DNA of 64,000 bases from Myxococcota bacterium (GTDB lineage Bacteria > Myxococcota > UBA727 > JABDBI01). Location of the stretch: positions 387,444-451,443 of the forward strand of contig JAZKCZ010000001.1 in NCBI GenBank assembly GCA_040387835.1, in the 5' to 3' direction. Positions 37,614 to 54,246 of the stretch are shown one piece after another; the stretch's first letter is position 1, and every line of letters starts with the position of its first letter. Made by a program: the position numbers and the translations under genes. The notes below the pieces were generated by a model. That model searched no databases. It was given only the letters and a program-made list of their open reading frames with translations, and was not told the DNA's origin.

Positions 37614-40600
37614 CTAAGCAACGTCAATATCAGCCGACTGGTCTTTAGAAAAATCAAAGGCCGCTTCCATAATGGCCTGTTGCTGACGAGCATGAACTTT
37701 CGGCGACCCGGTTGCTGGGGATGCATTTTCCCTACGCCCAATATAACGAGCCATAACGCCTAATTCTTTCAGCTTGCTCTGCGCAAACAAGTAAGCGCCG
37801 CAGTTTTTGGGCTCTTCTTGCAACCAGACGATATCTTTTACCGCAGGCAATTTAGGCAAGTTCAGCGGGTAGAGTTGTTCCAAACGCCAAATGCTTACTT
37901 CAGAGCCCAACTTGTTTTGCTGACGCCATCGATCCAGATCCCAGTAAACTTTGCCCGAGCATAAAATCAGCCGCTTCGTCTTTTTAGAAATCGGCGCTCT
38001 AGGATCCAGCAATACTTCATCAAATTGACCCGAAGTCAGCTCAGAAAGCTGGGATGCGGCATCTTCTGCTCGAAGTAAACTTTTATGCGTGAACACTACC
38101 AATGGCTTTTTAACATCTTTGGCTTGGCGTCTAAGCAAGTGATAAAACTGTGCCGGCGTGGTGCAATTCGCAATGCGCCAGTTATCCTGAGCGCAAAGCT
38201 GTAAAAAGCGCTCCAATCGCGCGGAACTATGCTCAGGCCCCTGCCCGTCATATCCATGAGGCAAAAACAGCGTCAACCGGCAAGTCTTGCCCCATTTGGC
38301 TTCAGACGAAGCAATAAATTGGTCAATCTGGATCTGTGCACCGTTAAAGAAGTCACCAAACTGCGCTTCCCAAATCACCAACGCTTCGGGATTCTGCAGT
38401 GAGTAACCATATTCAAAACCCAACACACCTTCTTCGCTTAATGGCGAGTCATAAATCTGGAAGTTACCAAATTGCTGCAAAGGGATATAAGGCTTACCGG
38501 TATTAACATCGTACAAAACAGCATGGCGATGCGCAAAGGTACCCCGCCCACAATCCTGCCCGCTGATGCGCACAGGCGTTTTTTCCTGCAGCAGAGTCGC
38601 ATAAGCCAAAGTCTCTGCCATCCCAAAATCAATGCCCGGCTTACCTTCAAAAATCATCGCCCGGCGCTTGTCCAAGACTTGCGCTTTAACACGAGGATGA
38701 AGCTCTATGCCCTCTGGCTCAAAAACCAAAGCTTCGGTCATGCGCTCCAGCTCTTTTTTCGGAAAGAGAGGCACAGCTTGCCGAGTGAACTCAGGAGCAG
38801 GGATAAAGTCAGCCAACGCCCCCTGACCCTTTTCGCGCACCGCACTCAAGGCATTTTCAAACACCTGGGTATGGCTTTCTTCCATGGCCCGCAGTTCATC
38901 TTGCTGCAAATCGCCGCGTCGCATCAGCAGCTCTGCATATAAAGTCGCTACCGACGGATGTTTTTGAATAGCCGCATATAAAATTGGTTGGGTGAAACTT
39001 GGCTCATCGCCCTCGTTATGTCCATAACGCCGGTAGCAGACCAAATCGATCACCACATCGCGCTTAAACATCGTGCGATATTCGGTAGCCATCTTAATCG
39101 CTCGCAGGCAGGCCTCTGGGTCATCCCCATTTACCCTAAACACTGGCGCATTAATAGCGCGCGCAATATCCGTGCAGTTTAGCGAGCTACGCGCCTTTTC
39201 AGGTGCTGTGGTGTAGCCAATCTGATTATTGACCACAATGTGAATGGTCCCGCCAGTTCGATACCCTTCCAAAGTAGACATCTGTAAGACTTCGTAAACC
39301 ACGCCCTGCATGGCAAACGCAGCGTCACCATGAATCAAAATCGGGACGACTTTTTCGCGCTCGACATCTTCCAACCAATCTTGTTTCGCGCGCGCTTGCC
39401 CTTCGACCACAGGGTTAACCGCCTCTAAATGTGACGGGTTACAGGCCAGTTCAACCTGCATCTCTTTACCATCCAAAGTCAGCTTGCCTTTAGCGCCTAA
39501 GTGATACTTGACGTCCCCAGAGCCCTGAAAGCTCTTGGGGTCAATGTCATCAAATTCTGCAAAAATAGCCGCGTGCGGCTTACCCACAACGTTCGCAAGC
39601 ACATTCAAACGGCCACGATGCGCCATACCGATAATGGCATGCTCAGCGCCAGCTTTAGAAATTTGCTCCAACAAGCTCTGCAGCATCGGAATCAAAACTT
39701 CAGCGCCTTCAATACTAAAACGCTTATGCCCAATAAACCGCTTGTGCAAAAAGTGCTCAAACCCTTCCGCCTGCAACAGCTTGGTCAAAATCTGCTTCTT
39801 CTCCAACAGATTAAAGGGCTCCTGCTCGTGCTCAATACGTTTTTGCAACGAAGCTTTTTGCGCCACTTCGTGCATGTACATATACTCAACGCCCATGCGG
39901 CGGCAATAAGCATTGCGAAGTTGCTTCAAGATCAGCCGCAGTGGTGCACTCTTTTGCGGTAGCGTGCCCAAAGTGTCAAAATCCCGGTCCAGATCCCAAA
40001 TGGTCAACCCATAATTTTGCAAATCAAGCTCAGGATGCTGACGAGGGCTTAAATGCAATGGATCCGTATGCGCGAGCAAACACCCCCGCACGCGATAAGC
40101 ATGAATCAGCTGACTCACCCGCATCGCTCGTTCCGTCTGAATGGAGTCAGCATTCTGACCCAAAACCACCGCCTGGTCAGCTTTTAATACATAGGGGTGA
40201 TGCGGAATGCGAAGCGCCTCAAAAACCTGGTCATAAAAGTTGTCCGCGCCAATTAACAGCTCATGCAGCTGTGCCAAAAAGTGCCCAGACTCAGCACCCT
40301 GAATCACGCGGTGATCGTAAGTCGAAGTCACCGTCATGACTTTGCCGATACCCAGCCCCCTCAAAGTTTCAGGTGAAGTCGCCTCAAACTGCGCTGGATA
40401 GCCAATGCGTCCGGTCGCAATAATGCAACCCTGCCCCGGCATCAAACGAGGCGTAGACGAAACCGTCCCAATGCCACCCGGATTGGTCAACGTGACTGTA
40501 GTGCCGTCAAAATCTTCAGGCTTCAGCTGATTCTTACGAGCCATATCAATCAGCGCATTGTAAGCCTTAAAAAAGGTCCAGAAGTCCATGTTCTGGCAAG

Positions 40601-41150
40601 CTTTCAGATTAGGCACCACCAAAGTCCGCCCGCCATCGCGTGCGGGCAAATCAATCGCTAAGCCCAAATTAATATCCGGCCGGGTTACCTTGAAAATGCG
40701 CGTGTCTTCGCGCGAAAAACCGTTATTCAAAGCCGGATTGGTCTTCAGGGCTTGCACGATGGCAAAAGCAATTAAATGCGTAAAAGAGCATTTCGGATAA
40801 GCTTCATCGATCAAATAATCGTTGATCATCTCCCGATTTTCTTCGAGAACTTTAACCGGAATATCTTTAAGCGAGGTAGCCGTCGGCACCTGCAAACTCA
40901 ACTCCATGTTTTCGACAATCTTACTGGCAATACCAACCAAAGGCGTTTTGGTCTTACTTGCACTGGCAGTTTCCGGCTCAATCTTCTTAGTAACCGGCGC
41001 AGGTTCTGCCTTTGCGACTACAGCAGGCGTACCGTCCGAAAAATAAGCCCGCCACTCTTCCGGCACACTCACCGGGTCTGCTTGCCACTGACTCCTTAAG
41101 ATTTCGACATAAGTTGCATTCAGTCCGAAAGAATTGAGAGCTTCTGCCAT
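37614..41150 (-). CDS. kgd: Fused 2-oxoglutarate dehydrogenase E2-E1 (Kgd/SucA type)
   Basis: A 1178-aa enzyme of the TCA cycle. Residues 1-40 are the SucA N-terminal segment (ATYVEILRSQWQADP). After a linker, residues 95-310 form an E2 succinyltransferase catalytic domain with the DHRVIQGAES motif (279-288, His280). Residues 370-1178 form the thiamine-diphosphate E1 component (AIIGMAHRGRLNVLANVVGK, GSGDVKYHLG, NPSHLEAVNPVVEG, LPHGYDGQGPEHSSARLERF). There is no lipoyl domain. This layout matches mycobacterial Kgd rather than the separate SucA/SucB of most proteobacteria, so lipoyl transfer must use another E2. No sucB or lpd is adjacent. The ATG has AGG eight bases upstream. Confidence 0.95.
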   Translation of the reverse strand: MAEALNSFGLNATYVEILRSQWQADPVSVPEEWRAYFSDGTPAVVAKAEPAPVTKKIEPETASASKTKTPLVGIASKIVENMELSLQVPTATSLKDIPVKVLEENREMINDYLIDEAYPKCSFTHLIAFAIVQALKTNPALNNGFSREDTRIFKVTRPDINLGLAIDLPARDGGRTLVVPNLKACQNMDFWTFFKAYNALIDMARKNQLKPEDFDGTTVTLTNPGGIGTVSSTPRLMPGQGCIIATGRIGYPAQFEATSPETLRGLGIGKVMTVTSTYDHRVIQGAESGHFLAQLHELLIGADNFYDQVFEALRIPHHPYVLKADQAVVLGQNADSIQTERAMRVSQLIHAYRVRGCLLAHTDPLHLSPRQHPELDLQNYGLTIWDLDRDFDTLGTLPQKSAPLRLILKQLRNAYCRRMGVEYMYMHEVAQKASLQKRIEHEQEPFNLLEKKQILTKLLQAEGFEHFLHKRFIGHKRFSIEGAEVLIPMLQSLLEQISKAGAEHAIIGMAHRGRLNVLANVVGKPHAAIFAEFDDIDPKSFQGSGDVKYHLGAKGKLTLDGKEMQVELACNPSHLEAVNPVVEGQARAKQDWLEDVEREKVVPILIHGDAAFAMQGVVYEVLQMSTLEGYRTGGTIHIVVNNQIGYTTAPEKARSSLNCTDIARAINAPVFRVNGDDPEACLRAIKMATEYRTMFKRDVVIDLVCYRRYGHNEGDEPSFTQPILYAAIQKHPSVATLYAELLMRRGDLQQDELRAMEESHTQVFENALSAVREKGQGALADFIPAPEFTRQAVPLFPKKELERMTEALVFEPEGIELHPRVKAQVLDKRRAMIFEGKPGIDFGMAETLAYATLLQEKTPVRISGQDCGRGTFAHRHAVLYDVNTGKPYIPLQQFGNFQIYDSPLSEEGVLGFEYGYSLQNPEALVIWEAQFGDFFNGAQIQIDQFIASSEAKWGKTCRLTLFLPHGYDGQGPEHSSARLERFLQLCAQDNWRIANCTTPAQFYHLLRRQAKDVKKPLVVFTHKSLLRAEDAASQLSELTSGQFDEVLLDPRAPISKKTKRLILCSGKVYWDLDRWRQQNKLGSEVSIWRLEQLYPLNLPKLPAVKDIVWLQEEPKNCGAYLFAQSKLKELGVMARYIGRRENASPATGSPKVHARQQQAIMEAAFDFSKDQSADIDVA

Positions 41151-41231: not shown

Positions 41232-43583
41232 ATGTGTGACCGAAATGGGCGGAGCCTGTCTCTGAAGACTTTTCAGGCGACACTTATCTATTCGGCCGTA
41301 GCGCTTTGTTTTACCATTGGTGTCTTTACTGCTGGCCAATCGCTACTCCCTGAACACTTCATCGAAGATGCGTTAACGCCCGACACGGAAAAAACTCAAG
41401 GTATTCGCTCATTCGACGATCCAACGCCTGTCCTGCTTGAACTAGGCCGCGAACGCTTAGTCGCTGAAGGACTCCACAAAGGAAAACTCTATAAGTGGAA
41501 CCCCTACTCGGGCGGCGGTGCACCATTATGGGCGGAACAGGGAAGCCCTTTCTTCCCTACCAAGTGGATCTACTACGCCGCTCCTTCCAGAACCACGTAT
41601 CATATCAGTTTAATTGCAAGGTTAGTCCTATCAGCCTTGGGCATGCTGTTTTTACTACGTGCTCTTGGTCTAAAGGAGAGATGGTCTCTAGCTGGCGGCA
41701 TGTTTTGGGAGGGCTCAGGCTCTTTATTTGCTCAACTAGCCTTTAATAACACTGGCGCCATCTTCATGATGCCCTGGGCGTTGTGGAGCGCTCATCGCCT
41801 TGTAAATGAACCGAGCTCAAAAACAGCGGCCGTAGCGGCGTTCATCATTGGCATAACAGCACTGGGTGGCCATCCCGTATTAACTACATTGGCGTTTATC
41901 GCTTTTGCTTTATATTGGATTGGCAGCGTTGTTGTTTTACCAAATCGTAAGAGCTATTTACCAATCGTCGGATGGTCAATTTTAGCGGTGATTTTGGGGT
42001 TAATGATTAGCGCGGTTGCTACCCTACCCTTATTAGAGCTAATCCAAAACGGTATTTCATATAAATCTGGCGCTGCGGGGGAAAAAGCCTGGGAATTTAG
42101 ACTATTTGCAGCCAGATATATGCTGCCTTTGGCGCTATTTACACCTAGCATACTTGCAGCGACTAGAGATATGCTGCCAGCTGGATTTTGGCCTACGGCT
42201 CAAGGTGCTTCTATTGGTTTAACGGTGCTTTTCTTGGCTCTGTCGAGCTTTTTAAAAATGGAGCGAAAGCTAGTCCCTCTAGTTTTTGTACTGCTGATAG
42301 GAATCGCGTTAACATTAGTTCCAATCGGAACCTCTTGGATACACAGTATTCCAATTATCAAAACCATTTTACCTTGGTATGGCTATCCGCTGATTACCCT
42401 TCCTTTATGTGCTTTTGCAGCGGTTGCTCTTAACCGACTGGATGAAAACAGGAGACTCTCCTCTCAATATACGGCGCCTGCACTTTTGATTCTCGCTGGG
42501 TTCGTCGTGACCGCTGGCGCTAATTTTGGCGCAAACTGGGTGAAGTTACCTCCTACCGCATTCCTAAGTCTGCTAGCGGTACCAGTGATACTTATACTGC
42601 TCTTACGATGCAAGACATACCCTCGACTAATTAACTCTTTTATAGCACTCGCATTCTTGGAAATTCTGATTCTTAGAGTAACGACCATCTTTCATCCGCA
42701 GTCTGTTGCCCTGACAGAATGTTATAGTGAAAAGTGCTCTGCTCGAGGGTCGATATTATCATCCTCCGACCAATATCGATTTATCGCGCCTAGTTTCACT
42801 TTTCTTATGCCCAATGCAAGCATTTTATTTGAGCAGAGGGACTTCAGAAGTTGCTCGCCACTACCCATAAGTAGATATACAAAATATCTGGATCTGATTG
42901 GCCCCTGGGATCATAATACATTTCAATACCCTGGCGCACTACAAATCCCACTTTTAAGCAAGGCAGCTGTAAGTAAAGTTATCAATGTCACAAGAAAATA
43001 TCCACAAAGCGGAGTTCTGTTAAACGGTTACGAAAATACCCATGACGATGGTTTGGTCCAGCTTTGGAATGATAGTAATGTGGCGCTATTTGAAAACCAG
43101 TTAACATTGCAGCGGATTCGCGTTAGCCAAAATGTGGAGAGGGCATTCGGCCAGAATGATGCGATTAACAAGCTTAACGGCTTAAAAAATGCTGATTTAT
43201 GGGCTCAAACCACTGTTATTGAGCTACCTGAAATTTGGACTGATACTCTCCCAACTCCTACCCCTGGCATATCAAACCAGATTGTAGCATCCGAGGATGT
43301 GAGTCCCGATCTACTGAAGATAAGTGTAAATTTTAAACAAAAGGGTTTCCTGGTGATTTCGGATACTTTCTATCCAGGGTGGAAAACATATCTAGATGGC
43401 AGGGAAACTCAAATTTTTCCAGCAGACTTAATGTTTAGGGCCATTTCCAGTCCTATAGGCAAACATCAAATAGAACTAATCTATGACCCCATATCCTTTA
43501 AAATTGCCGCTTGGGTGACCGTTTTAGGTCTTCTCTTTGCCTTCGCTGCATTATTCCTTCGCAAACGAAATGTTGCCATCTAA
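41232..43583 (+). CDS. YfhO-like multi-pass membrane protein
   Basis: A 783-aa membrane protein with about twelve transmembrane helices and a periplasmic C-terminal region. The N-terminal loop WNPYSGGGAPLWAEQGSPFF and the C-terminal ISDTFYPGWKTYLDGRET, followed by IGKHQIELIYDPISF and a last helix, are characteristic of the YfhO family (GT-C fold). YfhO is linked to glycosylation of teichoic acid-type polymers in Gram-positives. Here it probably transfers a lipid-linked sugar on the outer face of the inner membrane. First gene of the glycan cluster, divergent from kgd. Its end overlaps the next membrane protein by 14 bases. Confidence 0.82.
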   Translation: MCDRNGRSLSLKTFQATLIYSAVALCFTIGVFTAGQSLLPEHFIEDALTPDTEKTQGIRSFDDPTPVLLELGRERLVAEGLHKGKLYKWNPYSGGGAPLWAEQGSPFFPTKWIYYAAPSRTTYHISLIARLVLSALGMLFLLRALGLKERWSLAGGMFWEGSGSLFAQLAFNNTGAIFMMPWALWSAHRLVNEPSSKTAAVAAFIIGITALGGHPVLTTLAFIAFALYWIGSVVVLPNRKSYLPIVGWSILAVILGLMISAVATLPLLELIQNGISYKSGAAGEKAWEFRLFAARYMLPLALFTPSILAATRDMLPAGFWPTAQGASIGLTVLFLALSSFLKMERKLVPLVFVLLIGIALTLVPIGTSWIHSIPIIKTILPWYGYPLITLPLCAFAAVALNRLDENRRLSSQYTAPALLILAGFVVTAGANFGANWVKLPPTAFLSLLAVPVILILLLRCKTYPRLINSFIALAFLEILILRVTTIFHPQSVALTECYSEKCSARGSILSSSDQYRFIAPSFTFLMPNASILFEQRDFRSCSPLPISRYTKYLDLIGPWDHNTFQYPGALQIPLLSKAAVSKVINVTRKYPQSGVLLNGYENTHDDGLVQLWNDSNVALFENQLTLQRIRVSQNVERAFGQNDAINKLNGLKNADLWAQTTVIELPEIWTDTLPTPTPGISNQIVASEDVSPDLLKISVNFKQKGFLVISDTFYPGWKTYLDGRETQIFPADLMFRAISSPIGKHQIELIYDPISFKIAAWVTVLGLLFAFAALFLRKRNVAI

Positions 43584-45012
43584 TAAACACTCTCAGGAAC
43601 GGCTAGAAAATTTTGGCAGATTCTGCCTGTGGCTCGTGAATGGTTACCTATTAGGCACGGTTGTAAAACTATATTGGAACGCCTTATTTTATGCTCCAGT
43701 CAACAATGATGCTGGAACATTTCTATCGCTTGTCGAAAAAATACGTGAGGGGCACATCCTATTCAAAGATTATAGAAACGGATATGCACCTTTAGCGTTC
43801 CACATTCTCGCATGGATAAGAGAGGTCACTCCGAAAGCTTGGCCTGATTACAACGTATATTTAGGAACAGTCCTACTCTTTCTGCTTGCACAAGGCCTCC
43901 TAGTCTACCTAACTCTACGCCATTTCCGAATCAGCCATATACTTTGTATATTTGCCGGTTTATGGACGACATTAGCTTTAGGTAGGTACGAAGGCTTCTT
44001 CATATTTCTAGAACCGTTCGTCGCATTCTTTACTCTGCTCGGAACCTGGCTAATGTTGCAAAGCCAGCGAAGAGTTCTGTTTATTGTTCTAGCGGGTGTT
44101 TCGTTTAGCCTAAGCGCCCTATCCAAGCAGTACGGCATTTTAGCGCTCCCGGCAGTCGGCTTTTATCTTCTGTATTTTTCTAACAGTCCCAAGGAGCGGC
44201 TAACGAAAGCAGCTTTGTTTACTGTCGGCTTTGTTTTGCCCCTGACAGCCTTTCTAATATACTACTGCGTCGTACAAGGAGTTTCGGTCGCAAATCTCTT
44301 TCAGCAACTCGCAATGAATGGATACGCAAATAACCCAAACATTTCTATTAACCACCGCTCTATGGTCTTAAAATTTAGCCGCCAAATTGGCTTACTACTA
44401 TCTATCGCACCTTTCTTTTTTTTGGTTTTGTTCTCATGGACCAAAACCAACGTACTATTTTTGTTATTCAGTCTATCTTTAGGCCTGTCCACTTTAGTCC
44501 GGCCATTTCAACATTACTTCGGTTTAATAATATCATTTATCATCATATTTCAAATAATCGTTTTTGCTGGCTTAGTGGGCCGCCATCGAATTGCTAGAGC
44601 ATGTCTTGTTTTATACATCGGTTGGGTCAGCTTTCAAACAATAGCCCTTAGCCAGTTTTCATTTGCAGAGCAAAGCAGACTAGCTCAATATGAATTAGCT
44701 CATAAAATTAATAGCAAATGGCCCGCGGACACGGAGTCCTTGGTTTATGCCGCCCCTGAATATATGTATTTGGCGAGGTTAAAACAACCTGACGACTCTT
44801 TCGCATTTCTTGCCAACTTTTCGGGAGCCGAACAGATTGCGCTCATAGGTAAGAGTCACCATATCCTGGTAGACACCCAAAATTTTGAATATTTCTTCAG
44901 GGAAAAAGATAAGGTTGAACGACTAGGTAAACCTTTCTACACTGTTTTGACCGAAAACGGATTCAAACAAATCGATTTTTTCTACAATCGTTTCCAACTA
45001 TGGCAAAGATAG
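43570..45012 (+). CDS. GT-C fold glycosyltransferase-like membrane protein
   Basis: A 480-aa protein with about eleven transmembrane helices. The first periplasmic loop contains APVNNDAGTFLSLVEKIREG, giving an acidic residue early in the loop, and then LFKDYRNGYAPLAFHILAWI. This is the pattern of GT39/ArnT-like lipid-sugar-dependent transferases. The C-terminal soluble part is about 100 residues. ATG at 43570 is taken over an upstream TTG at 43537. It overlaps the YfhO-like gene by 14 bases and the aminotransferase by 13, so it is tightly linked to sugar synthesis. Likely function: periplasmic transfer of a polyprenyl-phosphate-linked sugar. Confidence 0.8.
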   Translation: MLPSNKHSQERLENFGRFCLWLVNGYLLGTVVKLYWNALFYAPVNNDAGTFLSLVEKIREGHILFKDYRNGYAPLAFHILAWIREVTPKAWPDYNVYLGTVLLFLLAQGLLVYLTLRHFRISHILCIFAGLWTTLALGRYEGFFIFLEPFVAFFTLLGTWLMLQSQRRVLFIVLAGVSFSLSALSKQYGILALPAVGFYLLYFSNSPKERLTKAALFTVGFVLPLTAFLIYYCVVQGVSVANLFQQLAMNGYANNPNISINHRSMVLKFSRQIGLLLSIAPFFFLVLFSWTKTNVLFLLFSLSLGLSTLVRPFQHYFGLIISFIIIFQIIVFAGLVGRHRIARACLVLYIGWVSFQTIALSQFSFAEQSRLAQYELAHKINSKWPADTESLVYAAPEYMYLARLKQPDDSFAFLANFSGAEQIALIGKSHHILVDTQNFEYFFREKDKVERLGKPFYTVLTENGFKQIDFFYNRFQLWQR

Positions 45013-46103
45013 AGTTCAATAAGCCCTATATAGCCCCAATGACGGCTGATTATATTGGGCAAGCTCTGCGCTCAGGGTCAATCGTTGGTAATGGGCCATT
45101 TACCAAGAAATGCCACTCATTTTTCCAAGAACGTTACGGATTTTCAAAAGTACTATTAACGAGCTCATGTACGGACGCATTAGAAATGTCTGCTCTCTTA
45201 TGTGATATTCGGCCGGGCGATGAAGTCATCATGCCTACCTATACATTTGTATCGACGGCCAATGCGTTTGCGTTAAGAGGGGCAGTAATTCGCTTTGCCG
45301 ATTCCGAGCGGGAAACGCCATCAATATCCGCAGACGAAATCGAAGCGTTAATTACTCCCAAGACTAAAGCGGTAGTTGTCGTGCATTACGGCGGTGTAGC
45401 TTGCGATTTAGATCGAATTTGCGATATTGTTCGCCAACACAAGCTTTTTCTAATTGAAGATGCAGCACACGCCATTGACTCATATTGGAATGGAAAACCC
45501 TTAGGCTCATTTGGAGATTTAGCAACCTTCTCTTTTCATGAAACCAAAAATATTGGTTGCGGTGAGGGAGGCATGCTGGTGATTAATAACGCAAAAATGC
45601 ATGAAACGGCGGAAATCGTCTGGGAGAAAGGCACTAATCGTTCTCAATTCTATCGAGGACAGGTGAATAAATACAACTGGCAAACTCTCGGCTCCTCATT
45701 TCTTCCCTCAGATCTCACAGCGGCCTGCCTTTATGCTCAGTTGCAAGAATTAGATTCCATTCAAACTCAGCGTAAGGAAATATGGCATCGGTACCAGAAT
45801 GCCCTCGCTAGCTTTCCTGTCAGATACGGAGCCTCAGCAAATGGGCATTTATATTACATAGAAAGCAGCCGCGAAAACGTGCTCGAAGATTTTGCGGCGG
45901 CTGGAATTCAAGCTTTATCCCACTATATCACCCTACATGACAGTCCTTTTTATGCTGACAAGCATGATGGCAGGGAATTGCCTAACGCGACACGCTATCA
46001 AAAGACGTTAATACGACTTCCAATTTACGTTGGTTTAACCACCGCGGAACAAAATGAGATAACAGAACATGTATTCTTACTGCAAAAAAATCCCTCTACC
46101 TAA
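45000..46103 (+). CDS. DegT/DnrJ/EryC1-type sugar aminotransferase (WecE-like)
   Basis: A 367-aa PLP-dependent aminotransferase very close in pattern to WecE/RffA, which makes dTDP-4-amino-4,6-dideoxygalactose from dTDP-4-keto-6-deoxyglucose. Conserved stretches are VLLTSSCTDALEMSALLCDI, GDEVIMPTYTFVSTANAFAL, FLIEDAAHAIDSYWNGKPLG, the PLP-lysine motif FSFHETKNIGCGEGG and KGTNRSQFYRGQVNKYNW. RmlA and RmlB, which supply the keto sugar, are encoded further along this cluster. It overlaps the previous gene by 13 bases and the following cupin by 35. Confidence 0.9.
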   Translation: MAKIEFNKPYIAPMTADYIGQALRSGSIVGNGPFTKKCHSFFQERYGFSKVLLTSSCTDALEMSALLCDIRPGDEVIMPTYTFVSTANAFALRGAVIRFADSERETPSISADEIEALITPKTKAVVVVHYGGVACDLDRICDIVRQHKLFLIEDAAHAIDSYWNGKPLGSFGDLATFSFHETKNIGCGEGGMLVINNAKMHETAEIVWEKGTNRSQFYRGQVNKYNWQTLGSSFLPSDLTAACLYAQLQELDSIQTQRKEIWHRYQNALASFPVRYGASANGHLYYIESSRENVLEDFAAAGIQALSHYITLHDSPFYADKHDGRELPNATRYQKTLIRLPIYVGLTTAEQNEITEHVFLLQKNPST

Positions 46104-46653
46104 TCTCCAAGCAACAGGTCAAAATTCCTTGCTTGAGTTTAAAACCCCCGCTGAACAAGCTAAGGTTTACCTGTCTGATTCGGGTATAATTAAAGAAGTT
46201 ATTTATACCAACCTGGTGACAGGCGAAAAAAAGGCAATTTCTGCCTCTGACGCTACGGAAATAACCGTCGGCTCAGGCAATTGTCAGCGACAGGTTCTGC
46301 ACTTTCTATTGCCTTCGTCTCTGCCAAGCATGCAACTTCGCCTAGGATTAACCACGCATACAGGTATAGGAACGTGGTCCAGTCTTCCCCATGGGTTTGA
46401 GCATAATCTAGAGCCTGATTTCGAGGAAGTTTTCTTTTACGTACTTTCTGGCGCAACAGAAAAGGCTATTCAAGTAGGCAAAGGTGTTTGGGCAGATGGC
46501 ACCTCTGTAGACGCAATATGGCCCGTTGAAAATCAAACATTCAGTACCATTCCAATGGGGTATCACCCCGTAGTCGGCGAACCAGGAGTAAAGGTATCTT
46601 ACGTTTGGGCCTATCTCGCAAAAAAGAAAGAATGGGAAAAAGTTACCGTATGA
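46069..46653 (+). CDS. IolB/KduI-like cupin, probable sugar isomerase
   Basis: A 194-aa double-strand beta-helix (cupin) protein. THTGIGTWSSLPHGFEHNLE followed by PDFEEVFFYVLSG, and STIPMGYHPVVGEPGVKVSY near the C-terminus, match 5-deoxy-glucuronate isomerase (IolB) and KduI, including the metal-binding His and Glu positions. It is shorter than IolB (about 270 aa) and lies in an amino-sugar context, not with inositol genes. A role in isomerising or epimerising an activated sugar is therefore more likely than inositol breakdown. Start ATG 46069 lies 35 bases inside the aminotransferase gene; the stop overlaps the SDR start (ATGA). Confidence 0.75.
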   Translation: MYSYCKKIPLPNLQATGQNSLLEFKTPAEQAKVYLSDSGIIKEVIYTNLVTGEKKAISASDATEITVGSGNCQRQVLHFLLPSSLPSMQLRLGLTTHTGIGTWSSLPHGFEHNLEPDFEEVFFYVLSGATEKAIQVGKGVWADGTSVDAIWPVENQTFSTIPMGYHPVVGEPGVKVSYVWAYLAKKKEWEKVTV

Positions 46654-47321
46654 CAAAAACCGCGGTCGTTGTTGGGGCTACGGGAAATATTGGGAAAGCT
46701 GTATGCCAAATATTGCGAGAAGCAGGATACGCAATTGATCCCACCTGGTTGGGAGCAGAGCGGCCAGATGCAACGCAAAAAGAGTCCTATCTTAACTTGC
46801 CTCCTAAGATAGATTTTGCTCTTTATCTTGCGGGAATTAATCATATCTCTAAAGCGGAAATACTATCGGACGAAGACTGGGATAAAGTGCATGATGTTAA
46901 CCTCAAAGGCGCTTTCCTGTTTGCCAAAGCGGCCTTTCCCAGCCTGAAACAGGCTCCATCGTCCAGCTTTGTCACCATTTCCTCTATTATGGTTACCCAC
47001 CCCTACCCCAATCGTCTAGCATACGCCACGGCGAAAGCTGGCTTAGAAGCTATGACCAGAGTTTTAGCGGTCGAATGGGGATCCTATAATATTAGCACCC
47101 ATTGCCTACGACTTGGGCATATGAATAGCCTGATGAAGAGCACCAGCGCCAATCCTGCCTTACTTGCTGCAGCCCGTCAGCTTACTCCCACCAAACAGTT
47201 AATTGAGCCCTCTTCAGTTGCAAAGTATATTCTTTGGCTGGCCGAAGGTGGTTGCAAGTCCATTTCAGGGAGCGTTCTAGACTTCGACCCCGCATATACG
47301 ATCAATCGGTGGCCACTATGA
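46650..47321 (+). CDS. Short-chain dehydrogenase/reductase
   Basis: A 223-aa classical SDR. The cofactor motif is GATGNIGKAV at residues 9-18 (GxxGxIG), LAGIN follows, the catalytic Ser lies in SFVTISSIM, and the YxxxK motif is YATAK in NRLAYATAKAGLEAMTRVLA. It is of the FabG/sugar-reductase size. It is coupled by ATGA overlaps to both the cupin before it and the ATP-grasp gene after it, so it probably reduces or oxidises an intermediate of the same sugar pathway. Confidence 0.88.
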   Translation: MTKTAVVVGATGNIGKAVCQILREAGYAIDPTWLGAERPDATQKESYLNLPPKIDFALYLAGINHISKAEILSDEDWDKVHDVNLKGAFLFAKAAFPSLKQAPSSSFVTISSIMVTHPYPNRLAYATAKAGLEAMTRVLAVEWGSYNISTHCLRLGHMNSLMKSTSANPALLAAARQLTPTKQLIEPSSVAKYILWLAEGGCKSISGSVLDFDPAYTINRWPL

Positions 47322-48508
47322 GCTCGAAACCAAAAGCAATTTGGGTTTTTGCCGGAGGGCCTATGCAAAAGCCCCTGGCTGAAAAAGTTAAGCAACGTGG
47401 CTATCAGCTGATTTTAACAGACCCATCCGAATTCCCATTTTGTGGGTCGGTTGCCGACAAGATAGTCAAACTTGATACCCATGATTTAAAGGGTAACTTA
47501 GATGCTTCCGAATCGATAGCCGAAGCATATGATGTTCGAGCTGTCATAACGGCTAGCTCCGACGCATGCGAAGGTCCTGCGTTATTAGCGCAAAAATTAG
47601 GCCTTTCAGGTGTCGATCCGGCAATTGCCCACATTTGCAGACAAAAGCACCTTACTCGTGCAGTTTTAAAGCAAGCCGGAATCCCTCAACCTGATATTCG
47701 ATTAGCTCAAACGTTTGAAGAGGCGAAACAAATTGTCCAAGAGATAAAGCTTCCAGTTTGTTTTAAGGCTACTGACAGTTCCGCGAGCAGAGGTTTCTCA
47801 GCACTGCGCGTTGCAACAGATGTTAGTGAAAAAGCTTTTAACGACGCAAAATCCAATGGGAGCACGGGATCGATCATTATAGAAACCCTACTAGAGCCAA
47901 TTGAGACCGAAATTGCTGAACAGTCCCTGGAAACCCTTTGGTATAATGGAAAGATGTATTGGCTTAATTGGGTCGATAGAATCTTCAGAAAAGATATATT
48001 TTCATACGATGATCTTGCCATCTATCAATCAGCTGACCTATCTTGGGGAATTGAAGTCGGACATTTGAACCCTGCCTTACACCCAAACCAAACCTTAGAT
48101 GCCGTACGCGAAATGGTCTATTCTGCCGGGGTCGCCCTCGGTCTTCACCTGCAGAAAGGTGGGCACATTATGAAATGCGACACCATGTTAACGAAACAAG
48201 GGCCGGTTATCCTAGAAGTAACTTTGCGTTTATCTGGCGGTTGGGATTCGGGCGGTAGCTCCCTACTAAGAGGCGCCGATTTCATTGGCGGAGCAATCGA
48301 AATGGCGCTGGGTAGAGAGTTAACTCTAGATTTATACTATAAGTATTTCACTTTTAAATACCCAGCACTCCATGCAGCGGTATTAACAAAGATTCCGTCC
48401 GATTCTAAAGACTGTATGGGCCGAATGTTTTCGATTGGCGCAGGCAACTCAAGACAGCATGCGATCGCAAATGCCAAAGAAAGACTTGAGGCTGGATTCT
48501 TCGTCTAA
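47318..48508 (+). CDS. ATP-grasp ligase
   Basis: A 396-aa ATP-grasp enzyme. The N-terminal pre-grasp domain begins IWVFAGGPMQKPLAEKVKQR. The ATP-binding region contains LPVCFKATDSSASRGFSALR, the familiar Lys/Gly-rich loop, and the C-terminal HIMKCDTMLTKQGPVILEVT with LRLSGGWDSGG gives the metal-binding Glu and the Arg. Such ligases join a carboxylate to an amine via an acyl phosphate (D-Ala-D-Ala, PurK, carboxylate-amine types). In this setting the amine could be the 4-amino sugar made by the aminotransferase. That is inference; the substrate is unknown. Confidence 0.85.
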   Translation: MSSKPKAIWVFAGGPMQKPLAEKVKQRGYQLILTDPSEFPFCGSVADKIVKLDTHDLKGNLDASESIAEAYDVRAVITASSDACEGPALLAQKLGLSGVDPAIAHICRQKHLTRAVLKQAGIPQPDIRLAQTFEEAKQIVQEIKLPVCFKATDSSASRGFSALRVATDVSEKAFNDAKSNGSTGSIIIETLLEPIETEIAEQSLETLWYNGKMYWLNWVDRIFRKDIFSYDDLAIYQSADLSWGIEVGHLNPALHPNQTLDAVREMVYSAGVALGLHLQKGGHIMKCDTMLTKQGPVILEVTLRLSGGWDSGGSSLLRGADFIGGAIEMALGRELTLDLYYKYFTFKYPALHAAVLTKIPSDSKDCMGRMFSIGAGNSRQHAIANAKERLEAGFFV

Positions 48509-48531
48509 TTACTCCATTTAGCAGGTGGAAT

Positions 48532-48675
48532 ATGACCATAACAGCATATCGGAAATTAAGTCACGCAAGCAAATTGCGAGAGGAATCGTTGGAAAAGAAC
48601 TTGAAGCGCGTCTTTTTTGCGACAAAAATTCGCTCAACCAAGCGGATGGGAAATTGTTCTTCAAAAGGTGAATGA
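48532..48675 (+). CDS. Possible 47-aa small basic protein
   Basis: ATG at 48532 is preceded by AGGTGGA, and the frame (MTITAYRKLSHASKLREESL, ending MGNCSSKGE) stops at 48675, overlapping the GT2 start as ATGA. The overlap style equals that of the other gene junctions in this cluster, which favours translation. It is basic, has no membrane segment, and might instead be just a leader that couples translation into the glycosyltransferase. Confidence 0.4.
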   Translation: MTITAYRKLSHASKLREESLEKNLKRVFFATKIRSTKRMGNCSSKGE

Positions 48676-49610
48676 GAGTAATGAAGTTATCCATTGTTTC
48701 AACGCTTTACAAATCGGAGTCCTATGTAGCTGAGTTTTGTGAGCGATGTGAACTAGCTGCCCAATCTCTTGTCGGCGATAGCTATGAGATAATTCTAGTC
48801 AACGACGGTTCTCCGGATCGAAGTTTAAGTTTAGCCCTAAAGGCACAGAAAACACTATCTAATTTAGTCGTATTAGATCTATCTAGAAACTTTGGGCATC
48901 ATAAAGCTATCATGGCAGGTCTGCATGAAAGCAGTGGTGACAAAATTTTTATGATCGACTGTGATTTGGAGGTCGCACCAGAGTCATTAATCGATTTTTG
49001 GAATTCGTTTGAGCATGATGCTTCTGCAGACGTTATTGTCGCAACCGTCGAGTCAAAAGGGAACTCATTTTTTAAAGGTTTGCTGAGCAACGCTTTTTAC
49101 TTCATCTACAACAAGCTGGTCGATTTAAAATTAGACAATAAAGAACTGGCAACAAGATTGATGAATCGAAGCTACCTTGACGCGCTACTCCAATATCCCG
49201 AGTATGAATTGTATTTAGGAGGACTACTGCATGATGTTGGTTTCAAACAAGTGAACATTTTGGTGTCCCGGACCTCCAACAAAGTTTCATCCTATTCACT
49301 AAAGAAGCGAGTAGACCTAGCACTGACTGCGTTGTTTTCTTTCAGCTCAAAGCCCTCACTCTATATTTTCTACTCAGGCATATTTTTCTCTGCCATATCC
49401 GTTGGTTATTCTGCATTTATTATATCTCAAAAGTTAATCAGCGGACGACCTTTACTGGGATGGACTTCTCTGATGGCTGCAATATGCGTCATTGGCGGTA
49501 TCACCATCTCTTCGATCGGTATTATAGGGATTTACACTTCAAAAATATTTTTTGAGGTGAAGAATAGGCCATTATATCATATCAAAAAAATCTATCGCCA
49601 TGGAAACTAG
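48672..49610 (+). CDS. GT2 polyprenyl-phosphate glycosyltransferase (ArnC/GtrB/DPM-like)
   Basis: A 312-aa family 2 glycosyltransferase. The GT-A domain shows LSIVSTLYKSESYVAEFCER, EIILVNDGSPDRSLSLAL, LDLSRNFGHHKAIMAGLHES and the DxD-type MIDCDLEVAPESL. Two transmembrane helices follow (LYIFYSGIFFSAISVGYSAF; AAICVIGGITISSIGIIGIY), as in ArnC, GtrB and dolichol-phosphate mannose synthase. It probably moves a sugar from a nucleotide onto undecaprenyl phosphate at the cytoplasmic face. An internal ATG at 48681 is an equally good start. It overlaps the GH57-like gene by 11 bases. Confidence 0.9.
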   Translation: MRVMKLSIVSTLYKSESYVAEFCERCELAAQSLVGDSYEIILVNDGSPDRSLSLALKAQKTLSNLVVLDLSRNFGHHKAIMAGLHESSGDKIFMIDCDLEVAPESLIDFWNSFEHDASADVIVATVESKGNSFFKGLLSNAFYFIYNKLVDLKLDNKELATRLMNRSYLDALLQYPEYELYLGGLLHDVGFKQVNILVSRTSNKVSSYSLKKRVDLALTALFSFSSKPSLYIFYSGIFFSAISVGYSAFIISQKLISGRPLLGWTSLMAAICVIGGITISSIGIIGIYTSKIFFEVKNRPLYHIKKIYRHGN

Positions 49611-50742
49611 CGCAACTCAAGCTTGGGCCATTTTCTATTTAAATTTAATGTTCTCTTCCATTGAGGAAGAGCGGCGGCTTGAAGTAATCCAGAAATGCTA
49701 TTGGCCGCTATTAAGGGTAATAGAAGAAACAGGATTTCCTTCCGGCATTTCCATGGCAGGATATACGCTGTCAGAAATTGGACGACTAGATCCGGCCTGG
49801 ATAGCTGCACTTAAGAATTTGATGGAGCGGGGCTTGGTGGAATTTATTGCAGCCGGTCAATTTCAAATCATAGGTCCTTTGGTCCCTAACGCAGTCAATC
49901 GAGCCAATTATCGTTTGGGCAACACGACGTATAGAAATATCTTAAATCAAGTACCGAAGTTAGTCCTTGTGAATGAGCAATGCTTTAGTAATTCAATGAT
50001 AGATCACTATATTGATGCAGGTTATCAAGGCTTTATTATGGACTGGGATAATATCCAGCTTGCCAATCCAGGACTTAACCCTTTGTGGCGTCATGCGCCC
50101 CAGATCGCAGTGAGTGCCAGCGGTCGTCTATTGCCAGTCCTTTGGGATCAATCGATCGCTTTTCAGAAATTCCAACGTTTTGTACATGGTTTAGACTCTC
50201 AAGACTTATACGACGAATGGCTCAATCGTTATCTTCAAGCAAAGCCAGCCGCAATAAGCATTTACTGCAATGATGTTGAGATTTTTGATTTTCGCCCGGG
50301 TCGTTTCGTCAATGAGCCCATACACACAGGGCCATCTGAATGGATAGCTATTGGAAAACTGCTATCGAGCTATCTTCATAACTCGCAGCTTAAATGTGTT
50401 TTACCTCACAAATTACTGACGAACTGTAATGCGAAGCCAGAAACAGCACTAAAATTGACGACGGCAGCAATGCCGATACCAACAAAAAAGCAGGAACACT
50501 ATAACGTTTTAAGATGGGCAGTCTCGGGACGAGATAATATACATATAAATAGCAGGTGCTTAGCCTTGGCTCGAGCGTTGGACGACTCCAAATTAACCGA
50601 GGAGCCACACTGGGAGGAACTTTGTTATCTTTATGCCAGCGATTTTCGAACCCATATTACGGAGCGTCGTTGGCAATCTTATCTTCAACGGCTAGCCAGT
50701 TTTGAAAGTAGGTGGATTAAACCCAATGCCTACAACCAATAA
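49600..50742 (+). CDS. GH57-like glycoside hydrolase, catalytic part
   Basis: A 380-aa protein resembling the N-terminal beta/alpha barrel of family GH57 (4-alpha-glucanotransferase/alpha-amylase type). It has FPSGISMAGYTLSEIGRLDP, LMERGLVEFIAAGQFQIIGP, a candidate catalytic Glu in LVLVNEQCFSNSMIDHYIDA and GYQGFIMDWDN. The last 70 residues resemble the helical region following the barrel in Thermococcus-type enzymes. Normal enzymes of this class (about 650 aa) continue into a beta-sandwich; here that part is the next, overlapping gene in another frame. There is no signal peptide, so it acts in the cytoplasm. Confidence 0.72.
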   Translation: METSATQAWAIFYLNLMFSSIEEERRLEVIQKCYWPLLRVIEETGFPSGISMAGYTLSEIGRLDPAWIAALKNLMERGLVEFIAAGQFQIIGPLVPNAVNRANYRLGNTTYRNILNQVPKLVLVNEQCFSNSMIDHYIDAGYQGFIMDWDNIQLANPGLNPLWRHAPQIAVSASGRLLPVLWDQSIAFQKFQRFVHGLDSQDLYDEWLNRYLQAKPAAISIYCNDVEIFDFRPGRFVNEPIHTGPSEWIAIGKLLSSYLHNSQLKCVLPHKLLTNCNAKPETALKLTTAAMPIPTKKQEHYNVLRWAVSGRDNIHINSRCLALARALDDSKLTEEPHWEELCYLYASDFRTHITERRWQSYLQRLASFESRWIKPNAYNQ

Positions 50743-51541
50743 CAACACTTTGATCCGCATAGAAACCAATTCAATGGGTATCGAATTGAATACAAAACAT
50801 GGATTAGACATTCAGAGGCTGTGGCTCAACAACGAACCAAATAAGGCTATTTTGGGTAGAATACCTCTAGGCTATTTTGAAGATATTCGGATCGGAAGTG
50901 AATTTCACAGTGGACATGTTGTTTTTCAACAACCCGGGCATTTGCTCAACAACGATTTGATCCCCTGTGTTGCAAATCTAAGCGAAACAGAAGGTTTCAA
51001 GAGGGTTCATACTCAGCTCCGAATGCCTTTAGGTCCCATGGAAAAGGAATATCGAATTTACAACGCGACAAATCGTGTAGATCTAATATGTAGACTTAAT
51101 TGGACCTCATATCCGCATGGCTTGCTTCGGCTCGGACATATAACACTTCTTCCAGATGCTTTCGATGCTGGTAGCCTGTGGTACGCCACCCATAATGGTG
51201 GGCCAGCCTTGGAGAAATTTTATCTAGACGGGCCAGATTTCAACCAACGTCGACCTGTCTCATTCGGAGTATCTGCAACGACCGCGGTAGGAATGACCGA
51301 GAATATCATGTTAATTGGTGACAATAAATATCATTTAAAAATCGGCATTAAGAGAGAGGACTTAGCAGTAGTTCCGATGATTATTTGGCAAAAACATAGC
51401 GAGAGTTTTCTTATGCAAGTTAATTTCTCGGCGGGCGAGCTCGACGACACGAGGCACGGAAAGACAGCAGAGAAATCAAACCAACCATTAATATTTCATA
51501 TGAGTCTGGAAATTTCGACTATGGATATGACAGAAAAATGA
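50726..51541 (+). CDS. Beta-sandwich protein, probable C-terminal half of the GH57-like enzyme
   Basis: A 271-aa protein built largely of beta strands (LIRIETNSMGIELNTKHGLD; LRLGHITLLPDAFDAGSLWY; THNGGPALEKFYLDGPDF). It resembles the mutarotase-like beta-sandwich that ends GH57 glucanotransferases. ATG at 50726 has AGGTGGA about ten bases upstream and overlaps the GH57-like gene by 17 bases in a different frame. Either two subunits replace one ancestral chain, or a frameshift has split it. Both ORFs are otherwise open and conserved-looking, which favours a true split. It overlaps rmlB by 4 bases. Confidence 0.65.
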   Translation: MPTTNNNTLIRIETNSMGIELNTKHGLDIQRLWLNNEPNKAILGRIPLGYFEDIRIGSEFHSGHVVFQQPGHLLNNDLIPCVANLSETEGFKRVHTQLRMPLGPMEKEYRIYNATNRVDLICRLNWTSYPHGLLRLGHITLLPDAFDAGSLWYATHNGGPALEKFYLDGPDFNQRRPVSFGVSATTAVGMTENIMLIGDNKYHLKIGIKREDLAVVPMIIWQKHSESFLMQVNFSAGELDDTRHGKTAEKSNQPLIFHMSLEISTMDMTEK

Positions 51542-52512
51542 GCTCCGTCCTTCTGGTCTCAGGCGCAGCTGGTTTTATCGGCAGCTTTTTTGTGGAAGTG
51601 GCTATCGCTGCCGGCTATCGCGTTATCATACTAGATAGCCTTACCTATGCTGGCAAACTCGAAAATCTGGAGGCAGTTCTCGCGTCCACCCAAGCAGAGT
51701 TAGTAATCGGCAATATTTGCAATGGCGAGCTGGTGACAAGGCTTTTGACCACCAACAATATAGATGCCCTCATTAATTTCGCTGCCGAATCCCATGTAGA
51801 TCGCTCCATTGAAAACTCCGCTCAGTTCATCCAAACCAACATCATCGGTACCTATACCCTCTTAGAAGCTGCTCTTACTCATTTCCAAAGCAATCCCAAC
51901 TTCCGCTTCATCCAAATATCTACCGACGAAGTCTACGGCGAACTGGGCCCAACTGGTAAATTTAACGAAGAAACCCCCGAAAGGCCAAACTCGCCCTACT
52001 CCGCCTCGAAAGCCGCAGGCGATATGCTCGCGAACGCGTGGTTCCACACCTATGGCCTGCCAGTTATCACCACGCATTGCTCCAATAACTACGGCCCAAG
52101 GCAGGACTCCGAAAAGCTTATACCGCATTTGGTACGCTGCGCCCTGGAAGGTAAGAATCTACCTGTCTATGGCGATGGCACGCATGTGCGAGATTGGATT
52201 CATGTAGAAGACCATTGCGATGGGATTATGTTGGCTTTGGAAAAAGGCGCTCCTGGCCAAAACTATTGCTTCGGCGGCGATGCTGAACGAACCAGCCTAC
52301 AAATTGCGGAGTTTGTCTGTGATACCATGGGCGTCGATAAGAGCCGCATTGAGTTCATTGCCGACCGCCGGGGGCATGATAGACGTTATGCCATTGATGA
52401 TTCCAAAGCTCAGCGTGAACTAGGGTTTAAACGCAAGCACGAGTTCGAGCAAAGCCTAAAAGAAACCATCCACTGGTATGTAGAGCAATACAATTCGGTC
52501 CTTGTGCCTTAA
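51538..52512 (+). CDS. rfbB: dTDP-glucose 4,6-dehydratase
   Basis: RmlB (324 aa; E. coli 361) is an extended SDR that makes dTDP-4-keto-6-deoxyglucose. The NAD motif SGAAGFIGSFF is at the N-terminus. INFAAESHVDRSIENS, the Thr-Asp-Glu catalytic triad in ISTDEVYGELG, PYSASKAAGD with YxxxK, and THCSNNYGPRQ with HVRDWIHVEDHC are all diagnostic. It supplies the substrate for the WecE-like aminotransferase in the same cluster, and RmlA encoded at 53371 supplies its own substrate. Confidence 0.94.
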   Translation: MSSVLLVSGAAGFIGSFFVEVAIAAGYRVIILDSLTYAGKLENLEAVLASTQAELVIGNICNGELVTRLLTTNNIDALINFAAESHVDRSIENSAQFIQTNIIGTYTLLEAALTHFQSNPNFRFIQISTDEVYGELGPTGKFNEETPERPNSPYSASKAAGDMLANAWFHTYGLPVITTHCSNNYGPRQDSEKLIPHLVRCALEGKNLPVYGDGTHVRDWIHVEDHCDGIMLALEKGAPGQNYCFGGDAERTSLQIAEFVCDTMGVDKSRIEFIADRRGHDRRYAIDDSKAQRELGFKRKHEFEQSLKETIHWYVEQYNSVLVP

Positions 52513-52532: not shown

Positions 52533-53342
52533 CTAGCTTTGCAGTACACCAATCAAACTGCTTCCTACAGGAATTTTGAGGCCTCGGTTGATAAATAATA
52601 ATTCTGCGGCATTGATACCGTTGAGCACTCTCTGCGCAATTAAACCTGCCTGATGATTTTCTGACTCGGACCGAGTGACCTCAATAACAGGGCGTCTTCT
52701 ACCAAAATGGTAGGGCATAGATCTCAAAAGAAATAGTGGCAAAATAGCATAAGAAAAAAAGTAGCTGGACCAAAGCCAATTAAATCCAGCTTGTTTTGCT
52801 AACTTCTTCATGGTCTTAGTCGTGTGGCGCCTGAAATGGCCAGCCGCCGAGTCAACATCAGACCAAAGGAATTGATAAGCAGGCACTGTGAAGTAAACAT
52901 ATGCGCCACGGGGAATGTGGTTTCTTAACTGAGTCATGAATTGGACGTCATCGTCAACATGCTCGATCACATCAAACAATCCGATGCCACCAACTCGGTT
53001 CGCAGAAAAATCAAAGTTCTGAAAAAACATATTATACACATTTGAAATGCCCCGGCTCCGGGCATTGAGGCAGCCCTGATATCCTGGCTCGATTAAAAAT
53101 GAATCTCGCTCTGGGAAGGACCTGGCTATCTGTTGGAGTTGGTAGCCATTTCCGCCACCAATGTCGGCAAAACCATTTTCAAAGGGAAATTGCCTAATCA
53201 CGCTTGAAATGACCTCATTTCGATGCCGAAACCAAAAGCTTAGGTCCTCTATTTTCAGACATTCGTCATTGCTACTATCCGGATATGAAATGCTAAGATC
53301 TTCCTTTCCCACCCACACGCCATTTTTATCAAGCTGCAACAT
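52533..53342 (-). CDS. SAM-dependent methyltransferase
   Basis: A 269-aa class I methyltransferase. The SAM-binding glycine motif is GFADIGGGNGYQLQQIARSF, with the acidic LIEPG at strand 2 and IGLFDVIEHVDDDVQFMTQL and YVYFTVPAYQFLWSDVD following. HFRRHTTKTMKKLAKQAGF is typical of methyltransferases in sugar or polyketide clusters. A hydrophobic stretch (SYFFSYAILPLFLLRSM) suggests membrane association. It lies on the opposite strand between rmlB and rmlA and probably methylates a sugar or a lipid-linked glycan. Confidence 0.85.
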   Translation of the reverse strand: MLQLDKNGVWVGKEDLSISYPDSSNDECLKIEDLSFWFRHRNEVISSVIRQFPFENGFADIGGGNGYQLQQIARSFPERDSFLIEPGYQGCLNARSRGISNVYNMFFQNFDFSANRVGGIGLFDVIEHVDDDVQFMTQLRNHIPRGAYVYFTVPAYQFLWSDVDSAAGHFRRHTTKTMKKLAKQAGFNWLWSSYFFSYAILPLFLLRSMPYHFGRRRPVIEVTRSESENHQAGLIAQRVLNGINAAELLFINRGLKIPVGSSLIGVLQS

Positions 53343-53370: not shown

Positions 53371-54246
53371 TTAAATCAGCAATAATTTTGTCAAATAGTT
53401 GGCGTATTCGTTTTTAGGGCCTAACTCTTCGGCGCGTTTGAGAATGTCTTCATCCGTCAGCCAGCCTCTTCGCCAGGCGATTTCTTCCAGGCAGGCCATC
53501 TTGAATGCTTGTCTGCGCTCTAAAGTTGCTACGAAGTTGCTGGCATCCAACAGGCTGTCATGCGTGCCAGAATCCAGCCAAGCGAAGCCTCTGCCTAGCA
53601 TTTCTACATAGAGTTCGTTTTGTTGTAGATAGACGCGGTTTAGATCGCTGATTTCCAGTTCGCCTCTGGGTGAGGCTTTTAGGCTGCGCGCTATTTGAAC
53701 CACTTGTGAGTCGTAAAAATACAAGCCTGTCACAGCCAAATCGGATTTGGGTTGTGCAGGCTTTTCTTCTATAGAAATCGCTTTGCCGGCTTTATCCAGC
53801 TGCACGACGCCGAACGCGGTGGGATTGTTGACTTGATAGGCAAAGACGGTGGCGCCTTTGGTCCGGTTTCTGGCGCGTTTAAGATGGTCGGATATGCCTT
53901 GGCCGAAGAATATATTGTCGCCTAGGATCAAACTCACGCTGTCTTGGCCAATAAACTCGGCGCCGATTAAGAAGGCTTGAGCAATGCCTTCGGGGCGGTC
54001 TTGCGTTGCGTAGGTGATATTTAGGCCTACGTGAGCCCCTGAGCCTAATAACTGTTGGTACGAGGGCAAATCACGTTCCGTTGAGATAATCAGAATATCT
54101 CGGATATCCGCCAGCATTAAGACTGACAGCGGATAGTAAATCATGGGTTTGTCGTAAACAGGCAACAAATGTTTTGAGATCACCTGGGTGAGTGGATGCA
54201 GCCTGGTTCCCTGCCCGCCTGCTAAGATGATGCCTTTCCAACCCAT
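53371..54246 (-). CDS. rfbA: Glucose-1-phosphate thymidylyltransferase
   Basis: RmlA (291 aa, normal length) makes dTDP-glucose from dTTP and glucose-1-phosphate. The nucleotide motif [20 protein letters not shown], then [45 protein letters not shown] and [20 protein letters not shown] are all intact. It is first in the dTDP-sugar route used by RmlB. It lies on the minus strand, 28 bases upstream of the methyltransferase and 20 bases after the SMR-like gene. Confidence 0.95.

Follow-up and report, generated by a model that had tools for sequence, protein, structure and literature searches.

A conserved cupin, SDR, ATP-grasp, and GH57-like gene set in a glycan island of a Myxococcota bacterium, with a possible role in amino-sugar acylation

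The nearest described counterparts of the locus analyzed here are the Shewanella sfmABCDE genes and the type B flagellin locus of C. difficile. The Shewanella sfm operon comprises a NeuB-like gene and genes for a short-chain dehydrogenase/reductase (SDR), a methyltransferase, and an ATP-grasp enzyme (PMC3765264). Mutants tie ATP-grasp genes to flagellin sugar building in both S. oneidensis (PMC3765264) and C. difficile (PMC5207246). Those mutants concern other proteins, so a shared role for the proteins described below would hold by analogy only. Here, we examine a 64,000-nucleotide stretch of a Myxococcota bacterium genome (assembly GCA_040387835.1, contig JAZKCZ010000001.1, positions 387,444 to 451,443; hereafter, the window). 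It carries genes for a KduI/IolB-type cupin, an SDR, an ATP-grasp enzyme, and a GH57-like protein (Table 1). We show that these four form a conserved unit, with the neighboring sugar aminotransferase as a local, swappable partner. The set probably makes an unusual acyl decoration and attaches it to an amino sugar.

The set is present in all seven loci compared, the window and six relatives. Scanning one genome per species with the cupin sequence alone gave five loci, in two gammaproteobacterial metagenome-assembled genomes (MAGs) and in one MAG each from Thermodesulfovibrionales, Nitrospirae, and Syntrophorhabdus; the sixth, L046, came from a profile search. These scans are not exhaustive, and the pattern scan picks up near relatives only. 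Broader searching, in a sample of the gammaproteobacterial class and in the phyla to which two of the relatives belong, yielded just one true new locus. The window cupin is 52-61% identical to those of the six relatives, in all of which the cupin gene adjoins an ATP-grasp gene, an SDR gene, or both, followed within a few genes by one or two SDR genes and by the gene for a GH57-like protein of 660-690 amino acids. The window SDR is 62-66% identical to the cupin-adjacent SDRs of L024, L025, and L046, and the ATP-grasp protein is 40-49% identical to its cupin-adjacent counterparts in L024-L028 and 35% to that of L046.

Gene order varies among the loci. L024, L027, and L028 share the order ATP-grasp-cupin-SDR, and L025 and L026 differ from it by a methyltransferase-domain gene that separates the cupin from the SDR. 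The order in L046 (cupin-SDR-ATP-grasp-GH57) is that of the window. The set also takes two forms, with either a single SDR of 223-229 amino acids (L024, L025, and L046) or two SDRs of a different kind (L026-L028). The window SDR and cupin are nearest to the one-SDR form, and the window ATP-grasp protein is nearest to the two-SDR form. These mixed affinities suggest that the window genes may have been assembled as a mosaic. A methyltransferase-domain protein of ~305 amino acids is encoded near the ATP-grasp gene in four relatives (L024:15093-16019, L025:7846-8766, L026:7887-8828, and L028:7855-8772; compare SfmD in Shewanella). The window's only methyltransferase gene lies on the opposite strand (52533-53342).

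The aminotransferase is not part of this conservation. PseC-type aminotransferases, 27-32% identical to that of the window, occur in five of the six relatives, and none was seen near L027. The window enzyme is WecE-like: it scores 286.7 bits against PF01041 and 468 against NF008687 (cut-off, 375), although it falls below the cut-off of TIGR02379 (410.7 versus 434.85). Its best solved relatives are the WecE structures 4piw (E 1e-97) and 6blg (E 2e-95), and it carries the pyridoxal phosphate lysine motif SFHETKN. An earlier, sequence-only reading of the window had proposed a four-gene unit of aminotransferase, cupin, SDR, and ATP-grasp ligase. It named the genes correctly in outline, but included a gene that is not conserved and left out the true fourth member, the GH57-like gene. 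The neighborhood search that it called for recovers the cupin, SDR, and ATP-grasp genes in relatives, but not a WecE-like aminotransferase.

Gene overlap contributes little to the case for a joint unit. The four open reading frames (ORFs) at 45000-48508 and their starts, as given by that reading, are upheld, and the successive overlaps of 35, 4, and 4 bases are real. Relatives' proteins begin at residues matching the start codons of the cupin, ATP-grasp, and SDR genes. The chain extends farther upstream than first noted, as the gene at 43537-45012 overlaps the aminotransferase gene by 13 bases, and a second run of overlapping genes spans 48672-52512. However, 25 of the 41 same-strand neighbor pairs in the window overlap. 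Overlap is thus a general habit of this DNA and no special evidence that the genes belong together; the weight rests instead on conservation across distant genomes.

The cupin is a member of the KduI/IolB superfamily on both profile score and predicted fold. It scores 58.5 bits against PF04962 (KduI/IolB; cut-off, 23.9), aligning only to profile positions 115-252, the C-terminal half. Structural modeling, which had been suggested for this protein, gave an AlphaFold2 model (mean predicted local distance difference test score, 82) whose top PDB match is the IolB-like structure 2qjv (E 4.9e-6), with KduI structures also among the best. The protein is not an IolB. Its score against the IolB model TIGR04378 is below the cut-off (53.9 versus 205 bits), it has 194 amino acids versus about 270, and its HxH metal motif appears to have lost the second His. 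Across the set's cupins, H108, E119/E120, and H166 are invariant, and the position of that second His holds F or E according to which alignment is used. Inositol catabolism genes (iolACDEG) do not lie beside the cupin gene, and glycan genes neighbor it in all seven loci.

The other two intact members are an SDR and an ATP-grasp enzyme. The SDR keeps the YxxxK site and the preceding Ser, as read from its sequence. The product of 47318-48508 has no Pfam match above cut-off. Its structural model has the ATP-grasp fold, with E values of 1e-14 to 3e-17 for its matches to 4dim, to 3vot and BacD (L-amino acid ligases), and to PurK; glycinamide-ribonucleotide synthetase-type enzymes are among its nearest neighbors. 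An amide-bond-forming activity is predicted for this enzyme.

The GH57-like protein is encoded by a single ORF in all six relatives, whereas the window has two overlapping ORFs in different frames. The product of 49600-50742 is 37-43% identical to the N-terminal ~380 residues of the relatives' proteins, and that of 50702-51541 is 28-32% identical to residues ~405-673. The split falls in a poorly conserved linker, and both frames are open. This could reflect either gene fission or a frameshift, in the organism or in the assembly. The NEQ and NDxE motifs are kept, so that both candidate catalytic residues are present, and these acids together with the PF03065 match (46 bits) place the protein in GH57. 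In its first conserved region, a His is replaced by Tyr.

The clusters around the set in the relatives are of nonulosonic acid and flagellin glycosylation type. Five of the relatives lie in pseudaminic/nonulosonic acid-like clusters, with NeuB-like genes in the same cluster as the set (L024, L025, L026, L028, and L046). L024 encodes PseB, PseC, and PseF above cut-offs, together with a NeuB/PseI-like protein; its match to PseG is weak. In L027, L028, and L046, Maf-type (MptE-like) glycosyltransferase genes come after the set; genes resembling FlgK and flagellin/FlgL adjoin L028, and just downstream of L046 is a flagellin gene. In L046 (genome G787, contig C28), the set, the Maf gene, and the flagellin gene fall within about 8 kb. 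The genomes of L027, L028, and L046 encode both flagellin and Maf proteins, the combination used to recognize flagellin glycosylation. No flagellin match was found in the genomes of L024, L025, or L026 or in the window genome. An O-antigen setting, against which the sequence-only reading had compared the genes, is not clear, given these clusters and the pairing of a GT2 enzyme with a YfhO/PgfM2-like GT-C enzyme in the window.

The window genome has genes that could supply a dTDP-sugar to the aminotransferase. RmlA and RmlB are both encoded in the window, and RmlC was not found in the genome. There is thus no rhamnose drain, and the WecE-like aminotransferase is the only outlet seen for dTDP-4-keto-6-deoxyglucose. 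NeuB (PF03102) was not found in the window genome, in contrast to all five relative genomes checked. Both kinds of aminotransferase, WecE-like and PseC-type, yield a 4-amino-6-deoxy sugar. The 4-amino group that such enzymes leave is normally acylated by a GNAT enzyme, WecD or PseH. Neither WecD nor PseH scored above cut-off in any of the seven genomes, and weak PseH hits were never on the set-bearing contig. We infer that the ATP-grasp enzyme makes the amide, because the set stays constant while the base sugar changes, an amine is always left, and WecD and PseH are missing above cut-off.

The genes present, their families, the conservation of the set, its exchange of aminotransferase partners, and the lack of rival genes are observed; in the following scheme, we infer the reactions, their order, the acid, and any part played by the GH57-like protein. 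RmlA and RmlB would produce dTDP-4-keto-6-deoxyglucose, which the WecE-like enzyme would convert to a dTDP-4-amino-4,6-dideoxyhexose. The cupin and SDR may shape a small sugar-derived acid by isomerization and then reduction, like KduI and KduD. The ATP-grasp enzyme would activate the carboxylate of this acid with ATP and couple the acid to the sugar amine through an amide bond, replacing WecD or PseH. The GT2 enzyme would then move the sugar onto undecaprenyl phosphate, and the GT-C enzymes would pass it to an acceptor outside the membrane. We give about even weight to the overall proposal that a horizontally acquired island makes and exports an N-acylated amino sugar by means of the conserved set. 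A wider claim, that the set is an undescribed portable pathway that amide-links an acid to any 4-amino sugar of its host (dTDP-hexoses and nonulosonic acids alike, on flagellin and other surface glycans), is put forward tentatively.

Other uses of the same genes were weighed. The set travels with several NDP-sugar enzymes and might remodel the sugar ring, with the cupin epimerizing or isomerizing, the SDR reducing an NDP-sugar or free sugar, and the ATP-grasp enzyme adding an amino acid or similar common metabolite. In many sugar pathways, keto-sugars are substrates of SDRs and of cupins of the RmlC or FdtA type. We consider ring remodeling rather unlikely, as the cupin is of the KduI/IolB kind (free uronate isomerases), not RmlC or FdtA, and as the co-occurrence of one set with differing base sugars (dTDP-hexose in one host, nonulosonic acid derived from UDP-HexNAc in others) is more easily reconciled with a separable substituent. 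Alternatively, the product of the set might be a complete additional residue, either a sugar or a sugar acid; the GH57-like protein would then help to make this residue, as a glycosyl transferase or hydrolase, and the ATP-grasp enzyme would amidate it. This would accord with the presence of the GH57-like protein in every locus, both candidate catalytic residues kept, and with the further 236-264 Da moiety on the Shewanella flagellin nonulosonic acid (PMC3765264). It nevertheless seems improbable, since the published description of sfmABCDE includes no cupin or GH57, and since the window's GH57-like protein, split and with Tyr for the first conserved-region His, may be inactive. That split, and the frequency of overlap in the window, could even suggest a chance or decaying cluster of polysaccharide genes with no joint pathway in this genome. 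We regard this as very improbable: co-occurrence in seven of seven loci, in distant lineages and changed orders, already disfavors chance, and the ORFs for the cupin, SDR, and ATP-grasp enzyme are unbroken here, with products 35-66% identical to relatives of the same type.

Several points count against the acyl decoration scheme itself. It leaves the role of the GH57-like protein unexplained. One canonical metal ligand appears to be missing from the cupin, making isomerase activity uncertain. ATP-grasp enzymes of the PurK type make N-carboxylates, and the ATP-grasp model is of low confidence over its C-terminal 50 residues. The absence of PseH from draft MAGs is weak evidence, as PseH-like GNATs can score below cut-off.

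The island (about 41232-51541) was probably acquired horizontally. Two compositional and distributional features argue for this: a GC content at third codon positions (GC3) of 0.39-0.45, versus about 0.5-0.55 for most neighbors, RmlA and RmlB included, and the lack of close relatives of the cupin (58 genomes of the phylum searched) and of the ATP-grasp protein (195 genomes). Vertical inheritance within the phylum was not seen in these samples. A phage or plasmid origin was rejected, with no cupin relative in viral contigs or phages and no close ATP-grasp relative in plasmids. Plasmid cupin matches are 28-31% identical and mostly annotated iolB, and the single one examined lay amid metabolic genes. 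An anti-phage defense system was also rejected, as none of the proteins has a PADLOC match.

The island is bordered by a gene for a KGD-like fused 2-oxoglutarate dehydrogenase (37614-41150, minus strand; 1178 amino acids), with E2-type and E1 domains read by eye. Between the ATP-grasp and GT2 genes is a 47-codon ORF (48532-48675) that overlaps the GT2 start by 4 bases and has no Pfam match. A remnant gene in this 163-base gap was rejected, as the gap encodes nothing like the relatives' genes.

Table 1. Genes of the glycan island and of the adjoining dTDP-sugar supply, in window positions
Product and place in the locus	Positions	Strand	Evidence
GT-C membrane glycosyltransferase, YfhO/PgfM2-like; putative export-side partner, first island gene	41232..43583	+	PF09586 YfhO C-terminal match 22 bits, below cut-off; NF047590 PgfM2 E 2e-4; GC3 0.417
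Second polytopic protein, probable GT-C glycosyltransferase	43537..45012	+	Overlaps neighbors by 47 and 13 bases; no Pfam/NCBIfam match
WecE-like DegT aminotransferase; local sugar supplier, outside conserved set	45000..46103	+	NF008687 468 bits; WecE structures
KduI/IolB-type short cupin, 194 amino acids; core	46069..46653	+	PF04962 58.5 bits
SDR oxidoreductase, 223 amino acids; core	46650..47321	+	PF13561 109 bits; Ser-Tyr-Lys site intact
ATP-grasp carboxylate-amine ligase-like enzyme; core	47318..48508	+	Relatives' ATP-grasps; structure model
GT2 polyisoprenyl-phosphate sugar transferase, PgfS/ArnC/CsbB type	48672..49610	+	NF047588 PgfS 173 bits, ArnC 107 bits, both below cut-off
GH57-like catalytic half; core, N-terminal part	49600..50742	+	PF03065 46 bits
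GH57-like C-terminal domain, separate ORF; core	50702..51541	+	Match to C-terminal part of relatives' proteins
RmlB, dTDP-glucose 4,6-dehydratase	51538..52512	+	PF16363 262 bits; GC3 0.542, unlike island
RmlA, glucose-1-phosphate thymidylyltransferase	53371..54246	-	PF00483 243 bits; GC3 0.555

Many bacterial amino sugars and nonulosonic acids bear unusual N-acyl groups to which no biosynthetic enzymes have been assigned. This set, which is rare, widely scattered, and paired with different aminotransferases, is a concrete candidate. If the acyl decoration scheme is correct, ATP-grasp chemistry would form the amide on the sugar amine, in place of an acyl-CoA transferase. The scheme would also assign functions to a GH57-like family and to a branch of the KduI/IolB cupins distinct from IolB.

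The locus resembles several known systems in part. Like sfmABCDE, which combines a short NeuB-like protein, SDR, methyltransferase, and ATP-grasp enzyme on a nonulosonic acid, several relatives carry these same four; compared by description only, sfmABCDE differs in having a TPP (thiamine pyrophosphate) enzyme and no reported cupin or GH57-like protein, and the window genome is without NeuB and flagellin. The C. difficile type B locus (CDR20291_0244-0247) similarly places an FdtB-like sugar aminotransferase beside an ATP-grasp ligase on which a flagellin peptidylamido-sugar depends, but has a cyclodeaminase and a FemAB-like acyltransferase in place of the cupin, SDR, and GH57-like protein (PMC5207246). 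With IolB and KduI (and KduD), the window shares the cupin family, the predicted fold, and the known pairing of an isomerase with an SDR; the window cupin is, however, short, with an altered HxH motif and no inositol or pectin genes nearby. In the Arn pathway (ArnB-ArnA-ArnC-ArnT), a 4-aminotransferase acts before N-acylation, GT2 transfer to undecaprenyl phosphate, and a GT-C step. The proposed scheme is alike in outline, but would use a dTDP-sugar, a WecE-type aminotransferase, and an ATP-grasp enzyme instead of a formyltransferase, and the GT2 protein scores 107 bits against an ArnC cut-off of 529. In five of the six relatives, the set sits among genes of pseudaminic/legionaminic acid biosynthesis (for PseB, PseC, PseF, NeuB/PseI-like, and PseG-like proteins, with varying completeness), although the set is not part of the textbook pathway and the window genome lacks NeuB. 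The GT2 and YfhO/PgfM2-like GT-C enzymes recall CsbB-YfhO and PgfS-PgfM three-component glycosylation, but through weak matches only; undecaprenyl-phosphate-based systems of this kind have a similar GT2 and GT-C arrangement (PMC7389260). No description of the cupin, SDR, ATP-grasp, and GH57-like set was found in the open-licence papers searched, nor was one of the combination that the sequence-only reading had not recognized from known O-antigen pathways. The enzymes and their context are of known kinds, while their combination and its portability look new.

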